Positions 457 through 52,756 of a stretch of DNA of 64,000 nt are shown one piece after another. This DNA comes from an uncultured bacterium. Lineage in GTDB: Bacteria; Bacillota_I; Bacilli_A; RFN20; CAG-826. Positions within the stretch are counted from its first letter, which is position 1; every line of letters begins with the position of its first letter. The notes under the pieces are model-generated. The model saw only the letters and a program-made list of their open reading frames with translations. It had not been told where the DNA came from and did no database searches. The stretch is from assembly GCA_949300345.1 (NCBI GenBank), contig CASGDR010000007.1, forward strand, positions 62,001-126,000, in the 5' to 3' direction. Position numbers and translations under genes: made by a program.

Positions 457-478
457 TAAATGGCCATTATCGCTTTTT

Positions 479-494
479 CCTCCGGATTAGGAGG
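479..494 (+). promoter_or_regulatory. Shine-Dalgarno-sequestering hairpin of the TPP riboswitch
   Basis: CCTCC at 479-483 pairs perfectly with GGAGG at 490-494, which is the Shine-Dalgarno of the thiT gene starting at 502. The same CCTCC could instead pair with GGAGG at 452-456, the 3' strand of the aptamer P1. That gives a simple translational switch: ligand-bound P1 leaves CCTCC free to hide the ribosome site. This is inferred from complementarity. Confidence 0.7.
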
Positions 495-501
495 AATTTT
501 A

Positions 502-1581
502 ATGGAAGAAAACGAAATACAGGAACTTCATCAGGATAGGATCGCTAACCTTCTCGAACTATTGAAGTCCAATCTCTGGATCATCATGGGTAGCATCGGT
601 GTCATCGCCCTGCTACTGACCTTGGTCCCTCTATTTAGCGCCATCCCGGTCGGTATGTCCGATGGGACGCTAATACCTCTAGGGGAAGATGAAATCGGAT
701 TCTGCTTTTGGGATTTGCTTGGCAAGACCGTCTTCTCTTGGGGCTTCTTCTTCGCCCTGCTATTCATCTTGGCGGCCACAATATGCGGATTCTTGTTCCG
801 TTTCCATTTGAATTTCGCGGTTGCTTCAACCCTTCTTTATCTGATTGGGGCCTGCCTACTGGTCTGCACTCCCTCTTTCTATGAACTGGCTCTTTCCTTC
901 AAGCTCGGGGCCGATGTAGGGGACATCGCCTCCCTAAGCGAATGCGCGGCCGGAGCCGGGGTCATCGTTCCGGTGATTCTATGCTTCATCGCCGCGATGC
1001 TAGGGGTCTCCCAAAGCAATGTCAAAGATCCCTTCAGCCTGGTCGAGATTGCCGAGATGGGCATCCTCATCGCCCTTGCGGTCATTTGCGACCTCTATCT
1101 CTCCTTCGATATTTCCGCGGGTGCGGGTTCCATCAACCTCGCGATGGTGCCTCTGTTCCTGATTGCCCTTAGGCACGGACCGGCCAAGGGTTTCGTCGCC
1201 GGCGGCATCGTATTCGGTTTCATCACCTGCCTGACCGATGGCTATGGAATCTATACCTTCCCGTTCGATTACCTGATGGGCTTTGGTTCCATCTGCATGC
1301 TCGGATTCTTCCGCAAGTGGATTTTCACGGAAAAAGAACCCGGTTTTGCGCCGATTGGCTTCCTTTATATCCTCATCGGCGGGATTCTGGCCACCCTTGT
1401 AAGATTCATCGGTTCGACAGCTTCTTCGATGGTCATCTATGGCTATGAAATCATCCCGGCCATGGAATATAACGTCCTCTATATCTTGCCTACCGGGGCC
1501 ATTGCGACCGGGGTCATGATGGCCTTGTATGTGCCTCTGGCGAGGGTCAACTCCTACACCAGGCGCCATAACGCCCACTAG
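502..1581 (+). CDS. thiT: ThiT-like thiamine ECF transporter S component with extra N-terminal membrane domain
   Basis: Substrate-binding membrane subunit for thiamine uptake through an energy-coupling factor transporter. The last ~180 residues match ThiT: a VEIAEMGILIAL helix, LRHGPAKGFVAGG, and the DGYGIYTFPFDYL segment like the binding-site region of lactococcal ThiT. The first ~175 residues are additional, with about four hydrophobic segments (near 20-43, 70-92, 97-120 and 144-165), making 359 residues against about 180 for ordinary ThiT. I chose ATG 502 because AGGAGG at 489-494 precedes it; an in-frame ATG at 460 lies at the aptamer edge and has no proper site. The upstream TPP riboswitch supports the substrate. 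No energizing subunits are adjacent, so it probably uses shared ones. Confidence 0.85.
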   Translation: MEENEIQELHQDRIANLLELLKSNLWIIMGSIGVIALLLTLVPLFSAIPVGMSDGTLIPLGEDEIGFCFWDLLGKTVFSWGFFFALLFILAATICGFLFRFHLNFAVASTLLYLIGACLLVCTPSFYELALSFKLGADVGDIASLSECAAGAGVIVPVILCFIAAMLGVSQSNVKDPFSLVEIAEMGILIALAVICDLYLSFDISAGAGSINLAMVPLFLIALRHGPAKGFVAGGIVFGFITCLTDGYGIYTFPFDYLMGFGSICMLGFFRKWIFTEKEPGFAPIGFLYILIGGILATLVRFIGSTASSMVIYGYEIIPAMEYNVLYILPTGAIATGVMMALYVPLARVNSYTRRHNAH

Positions 1582-1646
1582 ATGAGGCGCTTCCTCAGGC
1601 TTGAATAAACTCACCCTAAACGCAAAGGCATTTTGGGCTCTTTTGG

Positions 1647-1675
1647 TTGAGATAAATCCCCTTAGGCCTTATATA
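1647..1675 (+). promoter_or_regulatory. Promoter of the acidic membrane protein gene
   Basis: TTGAGA at 1647-1652 and TATATA at 1670-1675 are separated by 17 bp. The predicted start, near 1682, leaves an 18-nt leader with a weak AGGAA site before ATG 1700. Confidence 0.5.
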
Positions 1676-1699
1676 TAAGGGAGTTTCAGGAACACCACT

Positions 1700-2959
1700 A
1701 TGCCAAAGAAAAAAGAAGATACCGAAATCATTGAAAACCCCATCGCCGAAGAAGAAAGCGACTTCGCCGACGAACTAAAGGAAGAACCCATTGAGGAAAT
1801 AATAGAAGAAGCACCCCTCGAAGAAACCAAGGAAGAACCGGCTCCGGCCGAGGAAGCCAAGGCAGAAGCCGAACCCAAGGTCGAAGAACCCAAGAGCTAT
1901 GAATACGATGACCCCAATCTCGAGGCCATCGAGTTTGCTAGGGCGGCTTGCCTGAAGTCCTACCGCGGCATGGGCAAATGGACCATCCTTCCGACCGTCG
2001 TGATGGTGGCCGGCATCGTCTTGGCCTGGATCTTGCCCAACTACGTCTGGCCGGATAATTCCACCCTTGCCCTAGGCATTACCATCGGCATCGTCGCCGT
2101 CATTCTGGTTTTGATGATCGTCCTTTCGGTCATCAAGAAAAGGAAGACCGACGCGAGGATGAAGGTCTATCTCAACGACTTCTATACCTTCACCGGACAG
2201 TATGTCTTCGATGGAACCGGAATCACCAATCTGACCGGTGACATCGATAGCAAGCTCACCAAGATCGAATTCGAAGAGGCTGGCCTCTACAAAGACCTCT
2301 TCAATGTCGGATCCAGGGCTTCGCTTACCTTCAATTACAAAGGCCATAAGTGCGGCATCGCCGATGCGGCTGGACAGATCAAGGGAGCCAAGGCCCTGCA
2401 GACCGTCTTCGTCGGCAAGTTCATGAGGGCCACCAACAACTACAAAGGCGCGACATTGACCATCTACCTGAAGGGCAACGATAGGGCCCTTCCTCCGACC
2501 GATATCGATGACATTCCCGTCATCATTGAGGACAAGACCATGGTGGTCCGCGGCGAACAAGGGGCCAAGAAAGCCTTCACCAAAAAGGTAAAAGATGCGA
2601 TCAAGTCCTTCAGGATGGACGAAACCCTGGTGGACATGACCGTCAGGATCGAAGAAGGAAAGACCTTCATCCTGTTCGGCTATGAAGACACCCTGATGAT
2701 CCTTCCGATGGAAAAGCCCTTCAACCCGGCCCCGACCCAGCATTACAAGGCCGACTTCCGCAAGGCCCTTGACCTGATCGATGCGATCGACGGCATCAAG
2801 AAAAGCCAAAAGGATGAACCCGTAGCCGAAGAAGAACCCAAGGCTGAGGAACTTAAGGCCGAAGAGACGGTCGAGGAAGCCAAAGAGGCCACTCCCGAAG
2901 CGGTGGAAGAGCCCAAGGCTGAGGAAACGCCGGCCATCGACGAAGAACATAAAGCCTAA
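1700..2959 (+). CDS. Membrane protein with acidic tails, possibly DUF3137-like
   Basis: A 419-residue protein of unknown function. Residues ~1-70 and ~370-419 are Glu/Ala/Pro/Lys-rich and probably disordered. Two hydrophobic segments lie near 96-116 and 124-146. They are followed by a basic KKRK stop-transfer and a ~220-residue globular domain (core YTFTGQYVFDGTG ... FEEAGLYKDL ... TVFVGKFMRA). The arrangement of two helices plus this domain recalls DUF3137 proteins, a weak resemblance judged by eye. Both tails would then be cytoplasmic. It is monocistronic, with its own promoter and a strong terminator just after the stop. Confidence 0.55.
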   Translation: MPKKKEDTEIIENPIAEEESDFADELKEEPIEEIIEEAPLEETKEEPAPAEEAKAEAEPKVEEPKSYEYDDPNLEAIEFARAACLKSYRGMGKWTILPTVVMVAGIVLAWILPNYVWPDNSTLALGITIGIVAVILVLMIVLSVIKKRKTDARMKVYLNDFYTFTGQYVFDGTGITNLTGDIDSKLTKIEFEEAGLYKDLFNVGSRASLTFNYKGHKCGIADAAGQIKGAKALQTVFVGKFMRATNNYKGATLTIYLKGNDRALPPTDIDDIPVIIEDKTMVVRGEQGAKKAFTKKVKDAIKSFRMDETLVDMTVRIEEGKTFILFGYEDTLMILPMEKPFNPAPTQHYKADFRKALDLIDAIDGIKKSQKDEPVAEEEPKAEELKAEETVEEAKEATPEAVEEPKAEETPAIDEEHKA

Positions 2960-2966
2960 ACCGAAG

Positions 2967-3007
2967 AGGCTGTCCGAACCAAAACGAGGCTCAGGACGGC
3001 CTTTTTT
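2967..3007 (+). terminator. Rho-independent terminator
   Basis: GGCTGTCC (2968-2975) pairs with GGACGGCC (2994-3001, one G-U) and is followed by a T-rich run, 8 nt after the preceding stop codon. Confidence 0.85.
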
Positions 3008-3151
3008 CTTGGATAGATCCGATTCACATATAGAGGGGATAATCCACCAAGAGCAGGGGTGGTCATATTTCCTCATGATGATTAGGTTTCGTTAACTTTG
3101 ATTGACAAGGTCGGGTTGTGGCAACTAACCTTTCTTGGCTATAGCCAAAAG

Positions 3152-3505
3152 ATGGAAAAAGAAAAGGAAGTCGAAGTAGTAGGGCTGATGATCTCCCTGT
3201 ACTGCCGTAAGAAGCATGGTAGCAAAAAGGGAACTCTTTGCCCTGATTGCCAAGCCCTTTTGGACTATGCCGCCTTCCGCAGAAGCGTCTGTCCCCACGG
3301 CGACAAGAAGCCTTTCTGCTCGAATTGCCCCATCCATTGCTATAAGCCGGACATGAAGGAAAAGATTAGGGCGGTCATGCGCTTTTCCGGACCTAGGATG
3401 TTACTGCACCATCCCATCATTGCCTGCTCCCACCTCATCGAGACCAAAAGAGAAAAACGCAAATTGAAGAATAAGGCCAAGAAGGAGGCTTCCAATGTTC
3501 GATAA
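3152..3505 (+). CDS. YgbA_NO family (nitrous-oxide-stimulated promoter) cysteine protein
   Basis: A 117-residue protein of the YgbA_NO family. The diagnostic pattern is intact: LYCRKKHG, CPDCQALLDYA, RRSVCPHG, KPFCSNCPIHCY and the closing RFSGPRML. The closely spaced Cys residues suggest metal or cluster binding. In enterobacteria the E. coli member is induced by nitric oxide through NsrR; a biochemical role is not established to my knowledge. ATG 3152 is chosen because TATAGC at 3140-3145 sits 6 nt before it, fitting a leaderless start; an in-frame start at 3098 would precede that hexamer. The stop overlaps the next ABC gene by 11 bp, so it is the first gene of the exporter/ECF cassette. Confidence 0.82.
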   Translation: MEKEKEVEVVGLMISLYCRKKHGSKKGTLCPDCQALLDYAAFRRSVCPHGDKKPFCSNCPIHCYKPDMKEKIRAVMRFSGPRMLLHHPIIACSHLIETKREKRKLKNKAKKEASNVR

Positions 3506-5222
3506 AGACCTCCTCAAGCTACTAGGCAAGAACAAGAAATACCTTTTCGTTGCTGTCATATTCATGATTCTCAAAGCCCTTGGCAACCTAGGTCTGACCG
3601 CTTCGGTGTGCTATGCCTTGGCCGTAGCCTTCGAAGGCCTTGAGCCTATGCATTACCTATACGCCACCTTGTCCTTCCTCGGGTGTTTGGCCCTTAGGTA
3701 CATCTTCGGAAGGCTCTCCGATGAGAGCAAGGATGCGATCGGTAGGCAAGCGAAGAAGGAACTTCGCCTTAGGGCCTATTCCAAAATCGTGGCCTTGGGC
3801 GGGGGAGAAGGAAGCGGCATGGGCCTATCCGGGCTTAGCCAGATTTCCCTTGAGGGAATCGAGCAGCTCGATCTTTATTACTCGACCTATCTGCCCCAGT
3901 TCTTCTATTCGATGATCTTCCCGTTCATCCTCTTTGCCATCTTGGCCCCGTTAGAATGGCATGCGGCCTTGGTGCTTCTATGCTGCGTGCCCTTGATTCC
4001 CATTTCCATCATCGCGGTCAGCAAGTATGCCAAAAAGGTCTTTGCCAAATATTGGGGCCAGTATATTTCCATGGGCGACGGCTTCCTGGACGCCATCCAA
4101 GGATTGAGGGATCTATTCGTTTATAAGGCGGACGCTAGGGAAGCCGAGAACATCGACCGCAAGGCCGAGGACTTTAGAAAAGTGACCATGAAGGTCTTGG
4201 TTATGCAGCTCGCCAGCGTCACCATCATGGATTTGGTGGCCTATGGGGGTGCAGCGGCCGGGATTTCATTGTCGCTGATTTCCCTTTCGGATCATGTAAT
4301 CAGCCCCGCAGTTGCTTTGTTCGTGGTCCTTGTGGCCGTTGAATTCTTCCTGCCTTTAAGGGCACTTGGCAGCGCCTTCCATGTGGCCATGAACGGCGTT
4401 TCAGCCGGCAGGAAAATCATGGCCTTGTTAGAAACCCCGGAAGTGCCTTGGGGTGCAGAAATCGCAAAAGCGGGCCCGATTTGCGCGAATCATGTTGATT
4501 TTGCCTATGAGGAAGACCGCCCCATCCTCAAGGATGTGACCCTTTCTTTCAAAGAAAAGGGCCTTACCGCGATAGTTGGCGAATCCGGCTCGGGCAAATC
4601 CACGATTGCCTCCTTGATCCTCGGGATGATCGACCCCAATAAAGGGGAGATTTCTTTGGGGAACGAGCCCATCAAGTCCTATAGCCGGGAATCCTATTTT
4701 GGTAACATCGGCTGGGTCGGGACCTCAACCCATCTGTTCAACCTTTCCATCAGGGACAATTTCCATTTGGCTAATCCCAGTTTGAGCGATGCTCAAATCA
4801 AGGAAGCCCTCCTGAAGGTCAACCTTGGCTCCTTGCTTGAAGAACATGGCTTGGACTATGTCATCTCCGAGGATTCGAAGAACATCTCCGGCGGGGAACG
4901 CCAGAGGATGGCACTAGCCATTTCATTGAGCATGGATAAGCCCATCTACATCTTCGATGAAGCCACCAGCAACATCGACATCGATTCGGAAGCCACCATC
5001 ATTGATAGCATCTATTCTCTAGCGAAGGATAAGACTCTGATCATGATTTCGCATCGTTTGGAAAACGTAGTCAGGGCCGACAAAATCTATTTCCTTGAAG
5101 ACGGGAAGATCATCGAGGAGGGCACCCATAAAGAACTATTGGAAAAGAAGGGCTCCTACGCTTCTTTGTATCTGACCCAGAAGTCCCTTGAGCAAGGTTA
5201 TAAGGAGGCCGTCCATGGATAG
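3495..5222 (+). CDS. CydD-like ABC exporter half-transporter
   Basis: A 575-residue fused permease-ATPase. The first ~320 residues form the six-helix ABC exporter domain. It contains the segment IEQLDLYYSTYLPQF, typical of CydD-type thiol/heme-related exporters. The nucleotide-binding domain has Walker A GESGSGKST (~362-370), signature ISGGERQR (~465) and Walker B IFDEATS (~484). It should pair with the next gene as a heterodimer in the membrane. CydDC exports cysteine and glutathione and binds heme. In streptococcal heme operons a comparable pair precedes an ECF transporter, as happens here. The start overlaps the YgbA_NO gene, with GGAGG upstream at 3484-3488. The substrate is not established. 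Confidence 0.85.
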   Translation: MFDKDLLKLLGKNKKYLFVAVIFMILKALGNLGLTASVCYALAVAFEGLEPMHYLYATLSFLGCLALRYIFGRLSDESKDAIGRQAKKELRLRAYSKIVALGGGEGSGMGLSGLSQISLEGIEQLDLYYSTYLPQFFYSMIFPFILFAILAPLEWHAALVLLCCVPLIPISIIAVSKYAKKVFAKYWGQYISMGDGFLDAIQGLRDLFVYKADAREAENIDRKAEDFRKVTMKVLVMQLASVTIMDLVAYGGAAAGISLSLISLSDHVISPAVALFVVLVAVEFFLPLRALGSAFHVAMNGVSAGRKIMALLETPEVPWGAEIAKAGPICANHVDFAYEEDRPILKDVTLSFKEKGLTAIVGESGSGKSTIASLILGMIDPNKGEISLGNEPIKSYSRESYFGNIGWVGTSTHLFNLSIRDNFHLANPSLSDAQIKEALLKVNLGSLLEEHGLDYVISEDSKNISGGERQRMALAISLSMDKPIYIFDEATSNIDIDSEATIIDSIYSLAKDKTLIMISHRLENVVRADKIYFLEDGKIIEEGTHKELLEKKGSYASLYLTQKSLEQGYKEAVHG

Positions 5223-6906
5223 AAGGCGGTCAGGAATCATCATCATGCTCAAGCTGATGTCGTCCCTTGGCAGCTTGGCTTTTGTCATCATCGTGGCCCT
5301 CATCAACGGGACCCTTGGCTTCTTAAGCGCATCCGGCGTCACCGTATTCGGGGCCGTGGCCATTGCCAAACTGCTCGGCGAACTTGGACTATGTGCGACC
5401 GTCTCCATCCCCTGGTGGGGCATTGCCCTTGGTGCGGTCGGCTGCGGGCTGATCAGAGGGGTGCTCCGCTACTTCGAGCAATATTCCAATCACTTCATCG
5501 CCTTCAAATTGTTGGCCATACTCCGCCACAAGGCCTTCGCCTCCCTGCGCCGCCTTGGGCCTAGCAAGGTCGAGCAGATGAAGAAGGGGAACCTGCTTAG
5601 TCTACTTACCGCGGACATCGAGACCCTAGAGGTCTTCTATGCCCACACCATGTCGCCGGTACTGATTGCCGTCCTCTCATCTTTGGCCTATTTCCTATTC
5701 ATCTATTTCCTCGGCGGGCTTTATCTCTCCCTAGTGGCCATATTTGCCTATGTTCTACTTGGTGTCATCGTGCCCACGGTTTCCAGCAAGGTCTTAAAGA
5801 GTTCCGGCGTTAGATACCGCAACCAGCTGGCTGGGTTCAATTCCTACTACCTCGATAGCCTCAAAGGCGTGAAGGAAACCATCGTCGAGGGCAATGTGGA
5901 ATCCCGCAAAGCCGAAATCGAAAGGCAAAGCACTTCCTTGCTATCCACCATCAAGGCCACGAAGAGGAAGAATTCCCGGGCGGCAGCCATCACCGAAGTA
6001 TGCGTGGCCCTTACCATGGCCCTAGCCACTGCGGTCGCCTTGATAGGATATATCTACCTTGGGCAAGACCTAGGCTTATTGATCATTGCCTTAGTCTGTT
6101 TCTTCTCTTCCTTCGGCCCGGTCCTGGCCCTAAGCGCATTGCCGGGAAACCTCACCCAGACCTTTGCCTCCGGGGAAAGGCTCTTGAACCTACTTGAGGA
6201 GAAGCCCTCCATCGAAGAGGTCAAAGGCAAAAACGACATCGACTTCAGGAAACTTGAGGTCAAAGATCTATCCTTTGCCTACGAGGGGGAAGAGGACGTA
6301 ATCAAAAACGCCAATCTGACCGCAGAACTTGGGCAAATCATCGGAATCGTCGGTCCTTCCGGTTGCGGGAAGTCCACCTTGCTCAAGCTCTTGCTCCGCT
6401 TCAACAAAAAGGAGGCCGGGCAAATCCTTTATGACGGGATCGATGTCGATGAAGTCAATACCTCAAGCCTCTATGAGAACGTGGCCGTGGTCTTCCAGGA
6501 TACCTATCTCTTCGATGGGACCATCGCCGAGAATATTGCTCTAGGTAATCCATCCGCATCAAAAGAGGAAATCCTGAAGGCCGTGGACGAAGCCTCTTTG
6601 AAGGACTTCATCGATGCTTTGCCCCAGGGACTCGACACCAAGGTCGGACAGACCGGGGAGGGTATCTCCTCGGGCGAAAAGCAGAGGATCGGCTTGGCTA
6701 GGGCCTTCCTAAGCAAGGCCAAGCTTATTCTGCTCGATGAGCCGACTTCCAATGTCGATAGCCTCAACGAAGGCATGATCCTTGCCTCTCTTGTTAAAGC
6801 CAAAAAGGACAGGGCCATCATCCTGGTCAGCCATCGGGAATCCACCATGGCCATCAGCGACATCAGATACATTGCCCATGACGGGATGATCCAAAAAGGA
6901 GAATGA
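5215..6906 (+). CDS. CydC-like ABC exporter half-transporter
   Basis: A 563-residue fused permease-ATPase, partner of the previous gene. It has six predicted membrane helices, then Walker A GPSGCGKST (~379-387), signature ISSGEKQR (~483) and Walker B LLDEPTS (~505). The signature has SSG in place of SGG, so the two ATP sites of the heterodimer may be unequal. ATG 5215 is chosen over an in-frame ATG at 5188 because AAGGAGG at 5202-5208 fits it; it overlaps the upstream stop by 8 bp. The next gene begins within the stop region, so the cassette is translationally coupled. Confidence 0.85.
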   Translation: MDRRRSGIIIMLKLMSSLGSLAFVIIVALINGTLGFLSASGVTVFGAVAIAKLLGELGLCATVSIPWWGIALGAVGCGLIRGVLRYFEQYSNHFIAFKLLAILRHKAFASLRRLGPSKVEQMKKGNLLSLLTADIETLEVFYAHTMSPVLIAVLSSLAYFLFIYFLGGLYLSLVAIFAYVLLGVIVPTVSSKVLKSSGVRYRNQLAGFNSYYLDSLKGVKETIVEGNVESRKAEIERQSTSLLSTIKATKRKNSRAAAITEVCVALTMALATAVALIGYIYLGQDLGLLIIALVCFFSSFGPVLALSALPGNLTQTFASGERLLNLLEEKPSIEEVKGKNDIDFRKLEVKDLSFAYEGEEDVIKNANLTAELGQIIGIVGPSGCGKSTLLKLLLRFNKKEAGQILYDGIDVDEVNTSSLYENVAVVFQDTYLFDGTIAENIALGNPSASKEEILKAVDEASLKDFIDALPQGLDTKVGQTGEGISSGEKQRIGLARAFLSKAKLILLDEPTSNVDSLNEGMILASLVKAKKDRAIILVSHRESTMAISDIRYIAHDGMIQKGE

Positions 6907-6908
6907 TT

Positions 6909-7694
6909 ATGGACGAGAAAGAAAAGAAGACCGAAGAGTTAACTGCCGAACTCATTGCCAATTCGGGCGAAGGGGATGCTTCAAGGGAAGTGGCCGAAGC
7001 CAAAAATGAGGTAGTCATCCCCGAAGACGATGTGGTCGATGCCAAGGAAGAAGAACAATTGGCCCTAGATCTTGCCAGCAATAGCGGCGAGGCCATCGAC
7101 GTCGAGGTAGAGGAAAAGAAGAGGTGGAAGTGGCTACCCCATTACACCATCAAAGACATCGTCTATTTGGCCATCATGGCGGCCTGCATGCTGTTGACCG
7201 GGGCCATCATGCCTCTTGTTACCCAAGTGCCGGTATTCGGCATCATCCAAGTCTGCCTCGGCTTGCAGTTTTCGATTTTCCCGGCCCTTGGGCTTATGAA
7301 GGTCCGCAAGCCCGGCGCCCTGCTTTTCATGGCTCTTTGCAGCGGCATCGTCTTGGTCTTCATGTTCCCGCCGATGTTCGTGTGTTTATTGATTTGCGCC
7401 CTTATTTCCGAAGTGTTGGTCCTTGCCGTGTTCAGGGGCTACAAAAATGATTTCGCCTGCTGGTTGTCCGCCATGCTGTACATGCCGATGTCCTTGCCGT
7501 TTCTCTATGTTTGGTATGCCTATATCTACACTTGGACCGGCGATGAAGGTGAGGCCGTCAGTGCCTTCATCGGGGCCGACTGGTGGGTGGCTCTATTGAT
7601 GTCGCTTGCCGTAGTTGCCATCTGCTCGATCGGCGCCTTGCTTGGGATCATCATCAACCGCGAGCTAACCAAGGCCGGAGCCAACAGGAAATGA
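6909..7694 (+). CDS. ECF transporter S component (MptD/Trep_Strep-like) with acidic N-terminal tail
   Basis: A 261-residue membrane protein. Residues ~1-65 are acidic and low in complexity. A membrane domain of five to six helices begins at HYTIKDIVYLAIMAA, the usual opening of MptD/Trep_Strep-like S components. Such proteins bind the substrate and are energized by EcfT and EcfA, which follow immediately. AAGGAG at 6895-6900 favours ATG 6909 over the in-frame ATG 6903, which overlaps the upstream stop. The stop overlaps the next start (ATGA). The substrate cannot be read from sequence; the neighbours suggest heme or a related cofactor. Confidence 0.8.
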   Translation: MDEKEKKTEELTAELIANSGEGDASREVAEAKNEVVIPEDDVVDAKEEEQLALDLASNSGEAIDVEVEEKKRWKWLPHYTIKDIVYLAIMAACMLLTGAIMPLVTQVPVFGIIQVCLGLQFSIFPALGLMKVRKPGALLFMALCSGIVLVFMFPPMFVCLLICALISEVLVLAVFRGYKNDFACWLSAMLYMPMSLPFLYVWYAYIYTWTGDEGEAVSAFIGADWWVALLMSLAVVAICSIGALLGIIINRELTKAGANRK

Positions 7695-8365
7695 GAGCTG
7701 GCTTCTCACTAAAACTCAATCCCTTGATGGCCCTGTTCATCGCGCTTTTCGTTTTGATCAGCGGCCTGGTTCTTGCCACCTCCATCAGAGGTACCTATTT
7801 CTTGGCCGGATGCCTGGTTTTGCTTTGTGTCTTCGGCTGCTGGAGAAGTGCCCTGCGCGTCATTCCCGTGATGGGCATCGTGGGGGCTATTTTCATCCTT
7901 ATTGCCTATTACTCTTCCGGGCAGGATACCGACGCTGCCCTAAGGATGGGCAACCGCTTCTTGGCCATTGCCGTCGGCATCATCCCGACCTTCGGCATCG
8001 ATTCGGCTGCCTTTATAAGAAGCCTCAACCAGATCAAGTGCCCAAGGGCCATAACCCTAGGCATGCTGATTGCCATGTCCTTTGTGCCTTTGCTGAAAAA
8101 GGAAGTCAGCACCGTAAGGGCGGCCATGAAGACTAGGGGAGCCGGAGGACTGGCCCGCCCCAAGGTTTTCTATCGGGCTTTTCTCATACCCTTTGTGATG
8201 AGGCTAGGCTCCATCAGCGATACCTTGGCCCTATCGGTGGAGACCAGAGCCTATACCCTCTCTGGGTATCCTTATTCGGTCTATAAGAAGCAATATCTGC
8301 TCATTTCCGACCTCTTTGCGGGGGTTTTGGTAATAGTGGGCCTCGTTTTGGCGGTAGTGTTATGA
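7691..8365 (+). CDS. ECF transporter T component (EcfT-like transmembrane coupler)
   Basis: A 224-residue membrane protein that couples the S component to the ATPases. It has N-terminal helices, a cytoplasmic coupling region, and Ala-Arg-type coupling motifs seen as AMKTRGAG (~139) and VETRAY (~184), then a C-terminal helix pair. ATG 7691 overlaps the S-component stop as ATGA; longer open frame upstream is out-of-frame shadow of the S gene. The stop in turn overlaps the ATPase start. Because S, T and A are encoded together, this looks like a dedicated (group I) ECF system rather than the shared group II module. Confidence 0.85.
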   Translation: MRAGFSLKLNPLMALFIALFVLISGLVLATSIRGTYFLAGCLVLLCVFGCWRSALRVIPVMGIVGAIFILIAYYSSGQDTDAALRMGNRFLAIAVGIIPTFGIDSAAFIRSLNQIKCPRAITLGMLIAMSFVPLLKKEVSTVRAAMKTRGAGGLARPKVFYRAFLIPFVMRLGSISDTLALSVETRAYTLSGYPYSVYKKQYLLISDLFAGVLVIVGLVLAVVL

Positions 8366-9774
8366 TTGCGATCCAAGGAAAAGGCGTAAGTTTCTCCTAT
8401 GACGGGGAAAGGAAGATCCTCGACCATGTCGATTTCCGTTTCGACTATGGCAAGGTCAATCTGCTTTCCGGGCATTCAGGCGAAGGCAAATCGACCCTGA
8501 TGTATCTCTTCTCCGGCATCATCCCCAACATCAAGGAAGGCAATTACGAAGGGAAGGTCCTCATCAACGGGGAAGACATCAAAGGCAAGAAGGTCGCCTC
8601 GTTGTCCAGGTTCGTCGGCACCGTCTTGCAGAATGCCGATGAGCAGATCGTCCATAAGATCGTGGAAGACGAACTGGCCTTCGGCTGCGAGAACCTAAAC
8701 TTCGCTCCCGAGAAGACCAAGAAGCAGATTGAAATCGTCTCCAAGCTGATGAAACTGGATCTCAATAGAAAGACCAGGACCCTTTCGGGCGGGGAAAAAC
8801 AGAGGCTGGTTACCGCTTCCACCTTGGCCATGGGGCAAAGGATATTGGTCCTTGATGAGCCTTTGGCCAACCTCGATAGGGAAGGGGCCCATAAGCTCAT
8901 GGGTACCCTTACATCCTTGGCTAAGGCCGGCTACTGCGTGATTCTCATCGAGCATCGCCTCGACGTGGTCTTGTCCTATGCCGAGATGGTCTATCACCTC
9001 GAAAAGGGAAAACTCAGCCTCATCGAGGACAAGGAGAGCTATCTCAAATCACAGACCAGCCTGCTAAGTTCCCAAGCCCGCCCCATATCCGATGAAAACA
9101 TCCTGCGCCTCGATAACATTTCCCATAGCTTCAAGAAAAGCCAGATCCTCAAGAATCTGAATCTCGACATCAAGAAGGGCGAAAGGCTGCTTCTGGTTGG
9201 CGAAAACGGCTCGGGCAAGACCACGATGCTTAGGATCTTGTCGGGGATCCTAAAGCCCAAGTCAGGAAAAATCATCCAGAATCCGGAACATCCTCTAGGG
9301 AAGGTCGGCTCCAGGGCTTGGTTTAGGAAAGTCGGCTATGTATTTCAGAATCCCGACTACCAAATCTTCATGGATAGCGTCGAAAAGGAAATCCGCTTTG
9401 CCAATCCCGATGAGGAAACCTTTAGGAAGTTGGTGGAGGCCTTTGCCTTGGAAGATTTGCTTGGCCGCCATCCCCAATCCCTTTCGGAAGGGGAGAAAAG
9501 AAGGCTTTCCATTGCCTCGGTCTTGGCTTCTTCTCCCGAAGTGTTGCTATTAGATGAGCCGACCGTGGGCATGGATTATGAGGGTTTGGTCCGTCTGGTG
9601 GACATTCTCAATGAAATGCATCTGAAGCTAGGCAACACCATGGTGTCCATCACCCATGACCTCAGGGTCGCCAAGGCCCTGACGGATGAGGCCTATTTGC
9701 TCAAAGACGGCTCTTTGGCCAAACTTGGTGGCCCTACGGAAGCCCTTGGGTATTTCCTTGGGGAAGGAAAATAG
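8362..9774 (+). CDS. Fused double ATPase of the ECF transporter (EcfA1-EcfA2 type)
   Basis: A 470-residue protein with two complete ABC ATPase domains in one chain. Domain 1 has Walker A GHSGEGKST (~36-44), signature LSGGEKQR (~140) and Walker B VLDEPLANLD. Domain 2 has Walker A GENGSGKTT (~279-287), signature LSEGEKRR (~373) and Walker B LLDEPTVGMD. It provides both ATP sites that drive the S/T pair. The start overlaps the EcfT stop by 4 bp. Streptococcal SiaH, from memory, is a similar duplicated ATPase at the end of the heme operon. This is the last gene of the cassette. Confidence 0.88.
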   Translation: MIAIQGKGVSFSYDGERKILDHVDFRFDYGKVNLLSGHSGEGKSTLMYLFSGIIPNIKEGNYEGKVLINGEDIKGKKVASLSRFVGTVLQNADEQIVHKIVEDELAFGCENLNFAPEKTKKQIEIVSKLMKLDLNRKTRTLSGGEKQRLVTASTLAMGQRILVLDEPLANLDREGAHKLMGTLTSLAKAGYCVILIEHRLDVVLSYAEMVYHLEKGKLSLIEDKESYLKSQTSLLSSQARPISDENILRLDNISHSFKKSQILKNLNLDIKKGERLLLVGENGSGKTTMLRILSGILKPKSGKIIQNPEHPLGKVGSRAWFRKVGYVFQNPDYQIFMDSVEKEIRFANPDEETFRKLVEAFALEDLLGRHPQSLSEGEKRRLSIASVLASSPEVLLLDEPTVGMDYEGLVRLVDILNEMHLKLGNTMVSITHDLRVAKALTDEAYLLKDGSLAKLGGPTEALGYFLGEGK

Positions 9775-9788
9775 GCAAAATTTACGGG

Positions 9789-10361
9789 ATGGCATCCGTT
9801 AATCGACTCAAAGAAAAATGGATTCCGGTTCAAGCCTATAAGCACGATGGTTCCCTCCACCGCCTATGGTCGGCTGGATATCTCGTCGAGGAAACCGACG
9901 AATATTGGGCTTTGGCGACCCGGTCTTCTTTGGTCATCGAAGACGATGGTCGGGAATGGATTACCAAGGAACATGCGATCTTCTATCTTTTCAAAAACAA
10001 GTGGATGAATGTTATCGCCATGCTCAAGGAAAGCGGGGGCATTTGCTTCTACGCCAACATTGCCTCGCCTTCCATCTATGACAAAGGGTTTATCAAATAC
10101 ATCGACTATGACCTTGATGTGAAGCTATACCCCGACGGCAAGGAAAAGATCCTCGACATTGAGGAATTCAATAAGAACGCCCACCACTACGGCTATAGCC
10201 AGGAACTGATCAGGAAAATCAAGGACTCGGAAAAGGAAGTCGAAGCCATGGCCGATAGGAGGGAATTTCCCTTCGATGGTGCCCACATGAAAGAACTCTT
10301 CAAAAAGTTCGAAGAGGAAAACGCTCCGGTCAAGGAATACCGTAAGCCTAAAGTAGAGTAG
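9789..10361 (+). CDS. DUF402 / Ntdp-like nucleoside tri- and diphosphatase
   Basis: A 190-residue soluble protein resembling B. subtilis YgaC/Ntdp of the DUF402 family, enzymes that hydrolyse nucleoside tri- and diphosphates. Family features visible are the N-terminal strand region ending in KNKWMNVIAM, the CFYANIASP segment, and the acidic metal-binding stretch YIDYDLDVKLYPDG followed by LDIEEF. It starts 14 bp after the ECF ATPase stop with no Shine-Dalgarno; CAAAAT 7 nt before the ATG is a possible -10. Its last 14 bp overlap the end of the convergent flavoprotein gene. Confidence 0.75.
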   Translation: MASVNRLKEKWIPVQAYKHDGSLHRLWSAGYLVEETDEYWALATRSSLVIEDDGREWITKEHAIFYLFKNKWMNVIAMLKESGGICFYANIASPSIYDKGFIKYIDYDLDVKLYPDGKEKILDIEEFNKNAHHYGYSQELIRKIKDSEKEVEAMADRREFPFDGAHMKELFKKFEEENAPVKEYRKPKVE

Positions 10362-11238
10362 CCAATAGTTCGTCTATTTCCTTAAAGGCCGGGGCCATCC
10401 TTTTGGCAAAGCCTTCCTTCAACACGCAGTCGCCGACCGCATAGACGTTCGGGGCGATTTCATAACCGTTTCCCACATCCCAGCCAAAGCCTTTTTCGGA
10501 CCGCTTGATGCCGAAATCATTGCTTTCGGGCGAGGAACCGTAGTTGACCAATATGCAATCGACTTCGATGGAGGTCTTTTCCCCGGATTCGACGTGCTTG
10601 ATGGAAATGCTGGAAGCTTTATCGCCATCTAGGGTGATTTCGTCAGGAATGTAGGGGAGATGCAGGGATATTTGTTTTCCTTCTATGGTTTTCGGGTTGC
10701 CGCGGAATTCCTTTCTGCGGTGTATGAGGTGGACCTCGGCCTCATCGCTAAGCTGGGCAGCCCAATCAAGGGCCGAATCCCCGCCCCCGAAGACGGCTAC
10801 CCTAAGGCCCTTGAGCTTATTGGGATCATCGAGGGAGTAGAAGATGTTCTTGGCCTTTGCCTCATTTTCTACACCTAGAGGGCGCGGCTTATAAAAACCC
10901 AGTCCGGTGGCGAGGACCACCTTCTTGGCTAGGTATGAATCCTTGTCCGTAGTGACTTTGACCAAGCCGTCTATTTCTTCCAATGAAGTCACGGATTCCC
11001 CGAGTATGGCTTTCGAAAGATCTATCTTTTGAATCAGGCGCTTTATGATTCCTTCGGCGGCCATGGGCTCGAACAAAGGCACATCGACCACCATTTTCTT
11101 GGGATAAAGGTTGGTAATCTGGCCACCTAGGGCCTTGGCCTCTATGAGCAGATAGTCCCTTTTCCCTTCTTCTAATTTTCCAGCGAGATATAAACCGGCC
11201 GGACCGCCTCCGACAATGATTATCTCTTTGCTTTCCAT
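10348..11238 (-). CDS. Ferredoxin/flavodoxin--NADP+ reductase, thioredoxin-reductase-like (YumC type)
   Basis: A 296-residue FAD/NAD(P)-binding flavoprotein. It has an N-terminal FAD motif (IVGGGPAGLYLAG, ~7-19), a middle NADP motif VFGGGDSALDWA (~155) and a C-terminal FAD-closing VYAVGDC. The CxxC of thioredoxin reductase is absent from the central domain, pointing to the type 2 ferredoxin-NADP reductase group that supplies electrons to ferredoxin or flavodoxin. ATG 11238 is used because the FAD motif starts at once and TATAGT on this strand (11250-11245) lies 6 nt upstream, a leaderless arrangement. Longer open frame would run into the divergent tsaE. Confidence 0.85.
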   Translation of the reverse strand: MESKEIIIVGGGPAGLYLAGKLEEGKRDYLLIEAKALGGQITNLYPKKMVVDVPLFEPMAAEGIIKRLIQKIDLSKAILGESVTSLEEIDGLVKVTTDKDSYLAKKVVLATGLGFYKPRPLGVENEAKAKNIFYSLDDPNKLKGLRVAVFGGGDSALDWAAQLSDEAEVHLIHRRKEFRGNPKTIEGKQISLHLPYIPDEITLDGDKASSISIKHVESGEKTSIEVDCILVNYGSSPESNDFGIKRSEKGFGWDVGNGYEIAPNVYAVGDCVLKEGFAKRMAPAFKEIDELLATLL

Positions 11239-11244
11239 ACGGAA

Positions 11245-11265
11245 ACTATACCCTAGTGGTATACT
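11245..11265. promoter_or_regulatory. Back-to-back leaderless promoters with inverted repeat
   Basis: Only 34 bp separate the start codons of the divergent flavoprotein and tsaE. TATAGT on the minus strand (11250-11245) and TGGTATACT, an extended -10, on the plus strand (hexamer 11260-11265) each lie 6-7 nt from a start codon. TATACC (11247-11252) and GGTATA (11258-11263) form an inverted repeat with a 5-bp spacer across both. Simultaneous polymerase binding seems impossible. Confidence 0.6.
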
Positions 11266-11272
11266 CCTAGCG

Positions 11273-11740
11273 ATGGACAAAATCACTTTCGTTTCCAAGA
11301 GCATACAAGACACTTCAAAACTCGCCTTGGCGTTAGCCAAGACCGCCTTCTCTGGCGAGTGCGTGCTGCTTGAAGGGCAGCTAGGGGCCGGCAAGACCGC
11401 CTTGTCTAAAGCCTTTGGCAAAGCCGTAGGGGTAATAGAGGATATCACCAGCCCGACTTTCAACATTCTCAAGGTCTATGAAAGCGGAAAGATCCCCTTT
11501 TACCACATCGATGCCTACCGCCTTGAAAACGGGAATGAGGACATCGGGCTTGAGGAATACATCCATGGCGATGGCGTCACTTTCATCGAATGGCCGCTTT
11601 ACATCAAAGACCTGCTCCCTAAGGAACACCTGCTCATCCAAATCGGCCTATTGGGGGATAACGAAAGGGAATTCGTCCTCTCGGCCATAGGAGAGCCCTA
11701 TGAAAAGGTCTTATCGGAGATAGAGGAGCTACTCAAATGA
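11273..11740 (+). CDS. tsaE: tRNA threonylcarbamoyladenosine biosynthesis ATPase TsaE
   Basis: A 155-residue P-loop protein that works with TsaB and TsaD to make t6A at position 37 of ANN-decoding tRNAs. Walker A GQLGAGKTA (~38-46), the switch-like segment ITSPTFNI and the HIDAYRLE motif are all family hallmarks, and length is typical. ATG 11273 follows an extended -10 by 7 nt with no Shine-Dalgarno. The stop overlaps the tsaB start by 4 bp. It opens the operon tsaE-tsaB-rimI-tsaD. Confidence 0.95.
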   Translation: MDKITFVSKSIQDTSKLALALAKTAFSGECVLLEGQLGAGKTALSKAFGKAVGVIEDITSPTFNILKVYESGKIPFYHIDAYRLENGNEDIGLEEYIHGDGVTFIEWPLYIKDLLPKEHLLIQIGLLGDNEREFVLSAIGEPYEKVLSEIEELLK

Positions 11741-12354: not shown

Positions 12355-12781
12355 GGCCAGCATCTCCAATTCGAAGGATATCGCCTATATCGAAACAAAA
12401 TCCTTCAAGGACCCTTGGAGCCAAAAAGACATCGAAAACGAATTCGAAAATAACCCTTTTGCGGTGTTTTTCCTTCTTGAGGACGAAAATGGGGCGGCTG
12501 GCTATATCGAGGCGATGGTTACCTTTGATTCTTCGACCATCTGCCGTCTGGCCGTTTTGCCTTCTAGTAGGAGGATGGGCTACGGTAGGCGCCTTTTGGA
12601 GGAACTGATGTCTTATCTAGCCACCTTGAAGGAAAAGCCATCCTTCTTGACCCTGGAGGTCAGGGAGGACAACGAAGCGGCCAAGGGACTATATGAAAAG
12701 GAGGGCTTCGTGCAAGCAAATAGGAAAGCCGGCTACTATAATGACGGCACCGACGCCCTGTATCTGATTAAAGCCTTATGA
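12335..12781 (+). CDS. rimI: Ribosomal protein S18-alanine N-acetyltransferase-like GNAT
   Basis: A 148-residue GNAT acetyltransferase. RimI acetylates the N terminus of ribosomal protein S18 and is commonly encoded between tsaB and tsaD. The acetyl-CoA loop SSRRMGYGRRLLEEL (~78-92) and the motif LEVREDNEAAKGLYEKEGF are typical. ATG 12335 is preceded by CAAGGAG; an in-frame start at 12296 inside tsaB lacks a site. The substrate is assumed from family and context. Confidence 0.88.
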   Translation: MPLRIYKASISNSKDIAYIETKSFKDPWSQKDIENEFENNPFAVFFLLEDENGAAGYIEAMVTFDSSTICRLAVLPSSRRMGYGRRLLEELMSYLATLKEKPSFLTLEVREDNEAAKGLYEKEGFVQANRKAGYYNDGTDALYLIKAL

Positions 12782-13776
12782 TCATATTAGCCATCGAATC
12801 CAGCTGCGACGAAACCGCCGTCGCCATAACCAAGGACGGGGAATTGCTCGCCAACGTCATTTCCTCGCAGGTCGACGTCCATAAGAAATACGGCGGAGTC
12901 ATGCCCGAGGTTGCCTCAAGGCTTCATGCCGAAAACATCGGGGTGTGCCTAAAGGAAGCCTTAGAGAGGGCGAATTTGTCCTTTGAGGACGTCGATTATT
13001 TCGCCGTGACCGAAGGACCGGGCCTAGTCGGCTGCCTCCATGTCGGGGTTACGGCGGCCAAGACGCTTTCGCTCATCTATGATAAGCCCCTCATCCCGGT
13101 CCACCATCTGGCGGGACATATCTATGCCTGCGAATATGTCGGGGAGCTCAAATTCCCCCTGTTGGCCGTGGTTGTTTCCGGCGGGAATACCGAGCTGGTC
13201 TATATGAAAAAGCATCTCTCCTACAAAATCGTCGGGGAAACCAAGGACGATGCGGTCGGGGAATGCTATGACAAGGTCGCTAGGGTCTTGGGCCTTCCTT
13301 ACCCTGGGGGCCTACCCATCGACCAAAGGGCTAGAGTTGGAAAACCCACCTACAAACTCCCGATTCCCCATCGGGAAAAGGGTACCTATGACTTTTCCTA
13401 TTCCGGTCTAAAGACCGCGGTCATCAATCTAGTCCATAACCTCGAGCAAAAAGACGAGGAAGTGAACGTGAACGACATGTGTGCTTCCTTTCAGGAAGTC
13501 GCCATCAAGATGGTGGTCGACCGCACCCTCGCGGCCGCCCGCGACCTTGGGGTGAAGCAGATCGTTTTGGCCGGAGGCGTCTCCGCGAATTCCTACCTTA
13601 GGGAAAGGGTGGTAGAAGAGCTGAAGAACTTCTCCATCGAGGTCCTCATCCCACCCCTTTGGTGCACGACCGATAACGCAGCCATGATTGCCAAGGTGGC
13701 CGAACATCTCATCAAGGAAGGGGTAAGGGGAGAACTTTCTTTATCTCCCGACCCCAATCTCCGCCTAGCTGAATAG
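12778..13776 (+). CDS. tsaD: tRNA N6-adenosine threonylcarbamoyltransferase TsaD
   Basis: A 332-residue catalytic subunit of t6A synthesis, transferring threonylcarbamoyl from its adenylate to A37. It has the opening LAIESSCDETAVA, the metal-binding HLAGH (~109-113), the nucleotide-binding VVSGGNTELV and YDKVARVLGLPYPGG segments, and the C-terminal GGVSANSYLRE and TDNAAMIA motifs. Length is normal. It overlaps the rimI stop by 4 bp and closes the t6A operon; asnS follows after 36 bp with its own promoter. Confidence 0.97.
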   Translation: MIILAIESSCDETAVAITKDGELLANVISSQVDVHKKYGGVMPEVASRLHAENIGVCLKEALERANLSFEDVDYFAVTEGPGLVGCLHVGVTAAKTLSLIYDKPLIPVHHLAGHIYACEYVGELKFPLLAVVVSGGNTELVYMKKHLSYKIVGETKDDAVGECYDKVARVLGLPYPGGLPIDQRARVGKPTYKLPIPHREKGTYDFSYSGLKTAVINLVHNLEQKDEEVNVNDMCASFQEVAIKMVVDRTLAAARDLGVKQIVLAGGVSANSYLRERVVEELKNFSIEVLIPPLWCTTDNAAMIAKVAEHLIKEGVRGELSLSPDPNLRLAE

Positions 13777-52690: not shown

Positions 52691-52696
52691 TATAAT
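52691..52696 (+). promoter_or_regulatory. -10 element of the queT transcription unit
   Basis: TATAAT at 52691-52696; TTGATT at 52670-52675 lies 15 bp upstream, a short spacer. It is placed directly before the preQ1 riboswitch. Confidence 0.5.
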
Positions 52697-52702
52697 TTGC
52701 CA

Positions 52703-52756
52703 CGGCTAAATAGCCGACGTGTTCTTCCTCTGAACCACGTATAAAAAACAAGGAGG
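52703..52756 (+). promoter_or_regulatory. preQ1-I riboswitch controlling queT translation
   Basis: P1 is ACGTG (52717-52721) with CACGT (52736-52740), closing a loop that begins TTC. It is followed by the A-rich tail ATAAAAAACAAGGAGG (52741-52756), which closely follows the preQ1-I consensus. CCTC in the loop (52727-52730) can pair with GAGG of the Shine-Dalgarno, giving ligand-stabilised occlusion. An extra hairpin CGGCTA/TAGCCG (52703-52716) precedes P1. The downstream gene is a QueT transporter, as expected. Confidence 0.85.

Follow-up and report, generated by a model that had tools for sequence, protein, structure and literature searches.

Heme uptake through energy-coupling factor (ECF) transporters has been described in Staphylococcus lugdunensis, streptococci and L. 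sakei, and the S components of these systems are reported to have remarkably little sequence in common (PMC7299338). In S. lugdunensis, the dedicated S-T-A transporter LhaSTA is iron-regulated through Fur and imports heme, which LhaS is suggested to coordinate through histidine (PMC7299338). In Streptococcus pyogenes, the genes siaD, siaE, siaF (S), siaG (T) and siaH (A) stand in that order under metal-dependent repression by MtsR (PMC6593403). Here we describe a six-gene cassette at positions 3152-9774 of a 64,000-nucleotide stretch of DNA from an uncultured bacterium of the CAG-826 lineage (contig CASGDR010000007.1; the whole stretch is referred to as the window). By gene order, the cassette matches siaD-H (two ATP-binding cassette (ABC) genes, then S, T and A) and differs from it in having ygbA at its head. 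We consider, with a probability of about 0.6, that it is a unit induced by iron limitation for acquiring and handling heme (iron-porphyrin) in hosts that lack cytochrome bd and are mostly unable to make heme.

The partners of the ECF genes in this cassette also have described relatives. Escherichia coli CydDC is a heterodimer in which H85 of CydC and H312 of CydD are the ligands of the heme iron, and the H85A substitution abolishes its function (PMC10374445, PMC10691846). The ygbA gene of enterobacteria belongs to the targets of NsrR and is induced by nitric oxide (NO), and no function is known for it (PMC2884951, PMC5320621). An anaerobic heme operon with HmuW and HmuF is known from Fusobacterium (PMC10404700). 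The available portion of the LhaSTA paper mentions no CydDC-like or YgbA genes with that transporter (PMC7299338). In the open literature searched we found no paper joining YgbA and CydDC, and the titles and abstract openings retrieved on YgbA, DUF454/YbaN, Trep_Strep/MptD, HtsTUV, siaD/siaE and heme ECF systems with CydDC held no description of a YgbA-CydDC-ECF unit.

Results

All six genes lie on the forward strand in the order ygbA, cydD-like, cydC-like, S, T and A. An earlier interpretation made from the letters alone (the sequence-only reading) had noted that they overlap or nearly touch and had called the ECF transporter dedicated. Both points were borne out: every junction overlaps, by 11, 8 (35 if the TTG start of the cydC-like gene is used), 4, 4 and 4 bases in succession, and the cassette encodes its own T and A components. 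The first gene, ygbA (3152..3505; ATG at 3152, with an alternative open TTG at 3098), encodes a 117-aa YgbA_NO protein (PF11756, 145.6 bits against a cut-off of 25). It is followed by the CydD-like half (3495..5222; TIGR02857, 369.6 bits, cut-off 435) and the CydC-like half (5215..6906; TIGR02868, 328.7 bits, cut-off 329.05) of a type IV ABC heterodimer; each is full-length and matches both ABC_membrane and ABC_tran. The cydC-like start is the ATG at 5215, and the TTG at 5188 is open as well. NCBIfam ranked the two exporters best with CydD and CydC, both below the equivalog cut-offs; a sequence search of the PDB, in which P-glycoproteins came out on top when domains were summed, ahead of CydC/CydD, was not used for classification.

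The S component (6903..7694) was placed weakly in the Trep_Strep (MptD-like) family, with 35.8 bits to PF09605 (cut-off 28.7) and 34 bits to TIGR02185, under its cut-off of 76.45; the family has no known substrate in the libraries used. Some 70 residues at its N-terminus form a charged tail. Its AlphaFold model (predicted local distance difference test score, pLDDT, 80.7) had an ECF S component, 5edl, as its best PDB match, and its profile matched no PDB sequence and nothing in plasmids. The T component (7691..8365, ATG at 7691) scored 39.4 bits with CbiQ PF02361, and the A component (8362..9774) has two ATPase domains, matched by PF00005 in two stretches (190.3 bits). No shr, shp or siaABC turned up when the ten proteins encoded in the region 460-11472 were scanned against family libraries.

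To compare heme ligands, we aligned E. coli CydDC (NC_000913) with 105 CydC-like and 95 CydD-like proteins, excluding ABC sequences outside 480-660 aa. The position of CydC H85 was His in all 55 distinct ECF-type and all 40 other sequences, and that of CydD H312 was His in 47/47 distinct ECF-type and 40/40 others. In the CydC-like protein of the window the H85 equivalent sits in RYFEQYSNH, and R77 was kept in 97 of the 105 CydC-like proteins. Among 17 deduplicated control exporters, one had His in the H85 column and none in the H312 column, with gaps there in 8 and 10 rows, so that these poorly aligned sequences are weak controls. Other residues differed: Y311 was replaced by Phe in all aligned CydD-like proteins and F195 by Trp in 92 of 95. 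The pair thus retains the heme clamp, with an altered periphery, as if to suit heme or a close relative.

YgbA was similarly constrained. All 97 aligned sequences, E. coli YgbA included, have C47, C56, C59 and C63. The window protein has seven cysteines and shares H62 and H94 with E. coli YgbA. A second set, C18/H22/C30/C33, occurred in 55/55 ECF-type and 21/41 other sequences and not in E. coli. To judge by these residues, YgbA looks like a protein with one universal metal or Fe-S site plus a second, optional one. The predicted model (pLDDT 83.4) had no fold match.

The sequence-only reading had regarded a linkage limited to this genome as fatal to its case; we found instead that the ygbA-cydDC-ECF unit recurs in many genomes. 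PF11756 was present in 19 of 196 genomes of an order sample and 47 of 395 genomes of a class sample. With the window's own locus left out, these gave 54 ygbA contexts. In 51 of them cydD or cydC lay within 6 kb of ygbA, and in 49 both did (contig ends account for two); L037, L038 and L108 had neither. The S gene was found in nine contexts and DUF454 (YbaN family) in 39, never together. The shared core is thus ygbA-cydDC, with the ECF genes and DUF454 as mutually exclusive additions to it. DUF454 was the regular partner of ygbA-cydDC where ECF genes were missing (for example, L034 8409-8873).

Searching with the S profile led to the same unit. It gave seven strong matches (E < 1e-60) in the class sample, all in YgbA-positive genomes and about 3.4 kb from YgbA, and a phylum-wide search gave strong matches in the window's class only. 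A collection with organism names yielded 66 loci, nearly all from metagenome-assembled genomes (MAGs): uncultured Clostridia (Borkfalkia, Gallimonas, Stercoripulliclostridium, Coproplasma and a Christensenella), Bacilli/Mycoplasmatota (Anaeroplasma) and two Spirochaetes MAGs. Nine of the 66 duplicate genomes of the class or order sample (identical tree rows), and distinct sequences were counted for the residue tallies. All six genes were visible in 43 loci. Where at least 4.4 kb remained upstream of S, ygbA, cydD and cydC were present in 41/41, and where at least 2.3 kb remained downstream, T and A were present in 56/56. Most loci with less than 4.4 kb upstream were simply cut by a contig end; in L174 cydDC was not seen in 3.2 kb, and in L175 ygbA was not seen in the 750 bases remaining before cydD. 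DUF454 was absent from all 66. Gene order varied in a few cases, with ygbA between cydC and S in L123 and L171 and divergent in L021/L172. In a CydC tree, built by a quick method and with long branches, the ECF type formed one side of a branch with a Shimodaira-Hasegawa-like approximate likelihood ratio test (SH-aLRT) value of 83, which becomes 97 when one more row, L077, is included. Anaeroplasma rows were nested among Clostridia, which suggests transfer between lineages.

Two loci showed damaged genes. In L038, from the window's genus, ygbA (2050-2366) is seemingly broken, its match being divided into two overlapping parts that lie in different frames; cydDC is not nearby, and an operator-like site of the kind described below still stands upstream. 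This suggests loss within the genus. In L082/L130, cydD is split over two frames by a frameshift or assembly error, and ygbA, cydC and the ECF genes are seemingly intact.

We searched 59 cassette genomes (49 of 50 chosen from the 66 S loci, and 10 sample genomes) for genes of heme metabolism. Most are MAGs and possibly incomplete; the CydA and HemB pattern was nevertheless uniform. CydA was found in none of the 59, while the same search was positive in 10 of 14 control genomes, and it is thus unlikely that the cassette pump serves cytochrome bd. HemB was missing from 52, including the window's genome (93.3% complete), and present in seven; therefore, heme in most cassette genomes would have to come from outside.

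A class-wide search for HutW, the anaerobic heme-degradation radical SAM family, with TIGR04107 was swamped by HemW (269/395 genomes), and a dedicated alignment resolved the two. HutW-like proteins occurred in two of the 59 genomes, scoring 872 and 876 bits where the next best match reached 141. In one of these, represented by L092/L149, genes for the HutW-like protein (HutW 241 bits versus HemW 159), an IsdE-like protein, FecCD and an HmuF/BilS-like flavodoxin lie beside ygbA; in the other the gene is on a separate small contig. Clusters of HutW-like, IsdE-like, ABC and FecCD genes were seen in L092/L149, L177 and L179, from Anaeroplasma-type genomes and one other genome of the class. An HmuF-like gene accompanies them in L092 and L177, and the clusters are a counterpart of the fusobacterial hmu operon.

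A palindrome-constrained expectation-maximization (EM) search over 42 sequences upstream of ygbA produced an operator model with the consensus AAGTTnGCnnnnGCnAACTT. Its log-likelihood was 214, a score inflated by kinship among the sequences, whereas the five shuffled sets gave 49-60. In a scan of 975,079 bases, the matrix gave 86 matches of at least 14 bits compared with 7, 3 and 10 in Markov resamples. Such a match lay within 400 bp before ygbA in 23 of 41 testable loci of the named collection. In some others the operator stands before an upstream DtxR-like gene instead of ygbA, and L149, L152, L168, L169 and L171, which have no ygbA-proximal site, have matches elsewhere in the same locus.

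The same operator precedes iron and heme genes, none of whose FeoAB, FecBCD or HutW sites, nor those of non-ECF modules, went into building the matrix. There are two sites each in L149 and L177 before HmuF, the first gene of the HutW operon; in one genome, these genes also share the neighbourhood of ygbA. In L178 sites stand before FeoA-FeoB and before a lipoprotein-FecBCD group. Others precede DtxR-like genes (L113, L168 and L169), short regulators resembling these (L152 and L171), and genes that we take to be DUF3793-like, some of them beside flavodoxin. Among non-ECF modules, the operator lay within 350 bases in 23/41, compared with 12/456 other open reading frames (ORFs) of the same loci; five of the 54 contexts were excluded from this test, four without a called ygbA ORF and one cut. 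The window's own genome (L211) has a perfect operator at C6:60770, with feoAB on one side and a DtxR-like gene on the other, as well as two one-mismatch sites 32 bases apart (C7:49619 and C7:49651) before Fur-family and rubrerythrin-like genes. A DtxR-like protein would be the candidate binder of the operator; MtsR, the sia repressor, belongs to the DtxR family.

Two further occurrences of operator-like sequence were noted. The two Spirochaetes MAGs (L128 and L170) carry five tandem sites at 12757-13076, after ECF A and before a gene of unknown function. The best match in the window (52693-52712, 13.2 bits) stands before the gene for a 170-aa membrane protein, presumably a QueT-type S component, which a tgt-like gene follows.

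Discussion

We propose that, when iron is plentiful, a DtxR-family repressor would shut the unit off in most lineages, and that iron shortage would derepress the operon. The S component would then capture heme outside the cell, with T and A driving import. The CydDC-like heterodimer, holding heme on the two histidines that E. coli CydDC uses, would move it within the membrane or across it. Its role would be either to cap membrane and cytosolic heme or to work as an importer with an exporter fold; the latter is suggested because the siderophore importers IrtAB and YbtPQ have that fold. YgbA, with its four invariant cysteines, may act from the cytosolic side on the incoming heme or iron.

The cassette is probably a heme ECF unit of the sia and Lha kind to which YgbA has been added as a partner. 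The sequence-only reading had likewise proposed a unit for heme, porphyrin or a related cofactor, resembling siaD-H without shr and shp, and this gains indirect support from the published sia order, the bis-His ligands, the iron-regulon operator and the heme-degradation operon. Like LhaSTA, the cassette has a dedicated S-T-A set and a putative iron-linked control, although LhaSTA answers to Fur. Heme S components are reported to share little sequence, so a lack of similarity would not exclude heme as the substrate here.

Several results weigh against this interpretation. No invariant His was found among 10 or among 43 aligned S components, in contrast to the probable His coordination of heme by LhaS. 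Beyond the absence of cytochrome bd and the scores below NCBIfam cut-offs, the pair differs from E. coli CydDC in that some propionate-contacting arginines are replaced; in all 105 aligned CydC-like proteins, those of the cassette included, Gln takes the place of R81 and His that of R136. Heme export, as performed by E. coli CydDC, fits oddly with an iron-starvation unit. Unlike the Fusobacterium hmu system, a HutW-like gene accompanies the cassette in only two of 59 genomes, so iron release from heme is unexplained; the window's genome is not among them, with only a HemW-level match. Finally, 18 of the 41 testable loci have no operator reaching 14 bits in the 400 bp before ygbA, the window's own copy (3079..3098) is degenerate (5.9 bits, weak; p = 0.014 versus Markov resamples), and a relaxed operator pattern is not enriched in the window's genome (11 sites versus 19 for the reversed control).

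One alternative, which we regard as unlikely yet worth keeping in view, is an iron-starvation unit whose S component imports some compound other than heme. Examples would be a chelated form of iron, a porphyrin other than heme, or a cofactor required once flavodoxin takes over from ferredoxin. The flavodoxin and DUF3793 genes under the common operator would fit, as would an S component weakly placed in a family of unknown substrate and devoid of an invariant His. Set against these are the invariant heme ligands of the adjoining pump, the sia-like gene order and the heme operon adjoining in L092/L149. Less probable still is that the CydDC-like pair exports thiols (cysteine or glutathione) and acts with an NO-linked YgbA against nitrosative stress, the ECF system importing a thiol or other precursor. 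NCBIfam labels CydD and CydC 'thiol reductant ABC exporter', transport of sulfur compounds by CydDC was reported in an earlier study (PMC4132815), and in enterobacteria ygbA is under NsrR and responds to NO; however, the operator is common to FeoAB, FecBCD and HmuF-HutW, and both heme ligands are invariant. We noticed no NO-related gene among the listed recurrent neighbours and no NO-related operator, and set aside the label of a nitrosative stress unit. The tie to nitrosative stress in the sequence-only reading was thus not supported: regulation and neighbourhood point to iron, and the link of YgbA to NO is its enterobacterial control by NsrR. That an ordinary vitamin ECF transporter became by chance the neighbour of a cydDC operon unrelated to it is very improbable, for although 45 of 54 ygbA contexts have no ECF genes, the combined unit has been retained in three phyla, and in the tree its CydC sequences fall on one side of a branch.

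Within the heme interpretation, a more specific and quite tentative proposal is that YgbA processes heme or iron together with a bis-His CydDC-type pump, the pump having given up its tie to cytochrome bd and passed under the control of iron. Heme might reach it from a new ECF importer or by a DUF454-dependent route, and iron might be released or stored without HutW or oxygen.

These observations set YgbA in a genomic context that is both strong and consistent, and they place a CydDC-type heme pump, if it is one, in genomes without cytochrome bd. They name a testable heme route for uncultured lineages, among them Borkfalkia, Gallimonas and Anaeroplasma, that for the most part are unable to make heme, and the alternation of ECF genes and DUF454 beside ygbA-cydDC offers a handle on DUF454/YbaN.

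Neighbouring genes

On its 5' side the cassette is preceded by a gene for a thiamine-transporter-like S component (460-1581) and by an unclassified one (1700-2959), and on its 3' side a DUF402/NtdP-like gene follows; none of the three is among the listed recurrent neighbour clusters of its relatives. The product of the 460-1581 gene is an S component of the ThiT/riboflavin type with an extra membrane-rich N-terminal region of about 190 residues.

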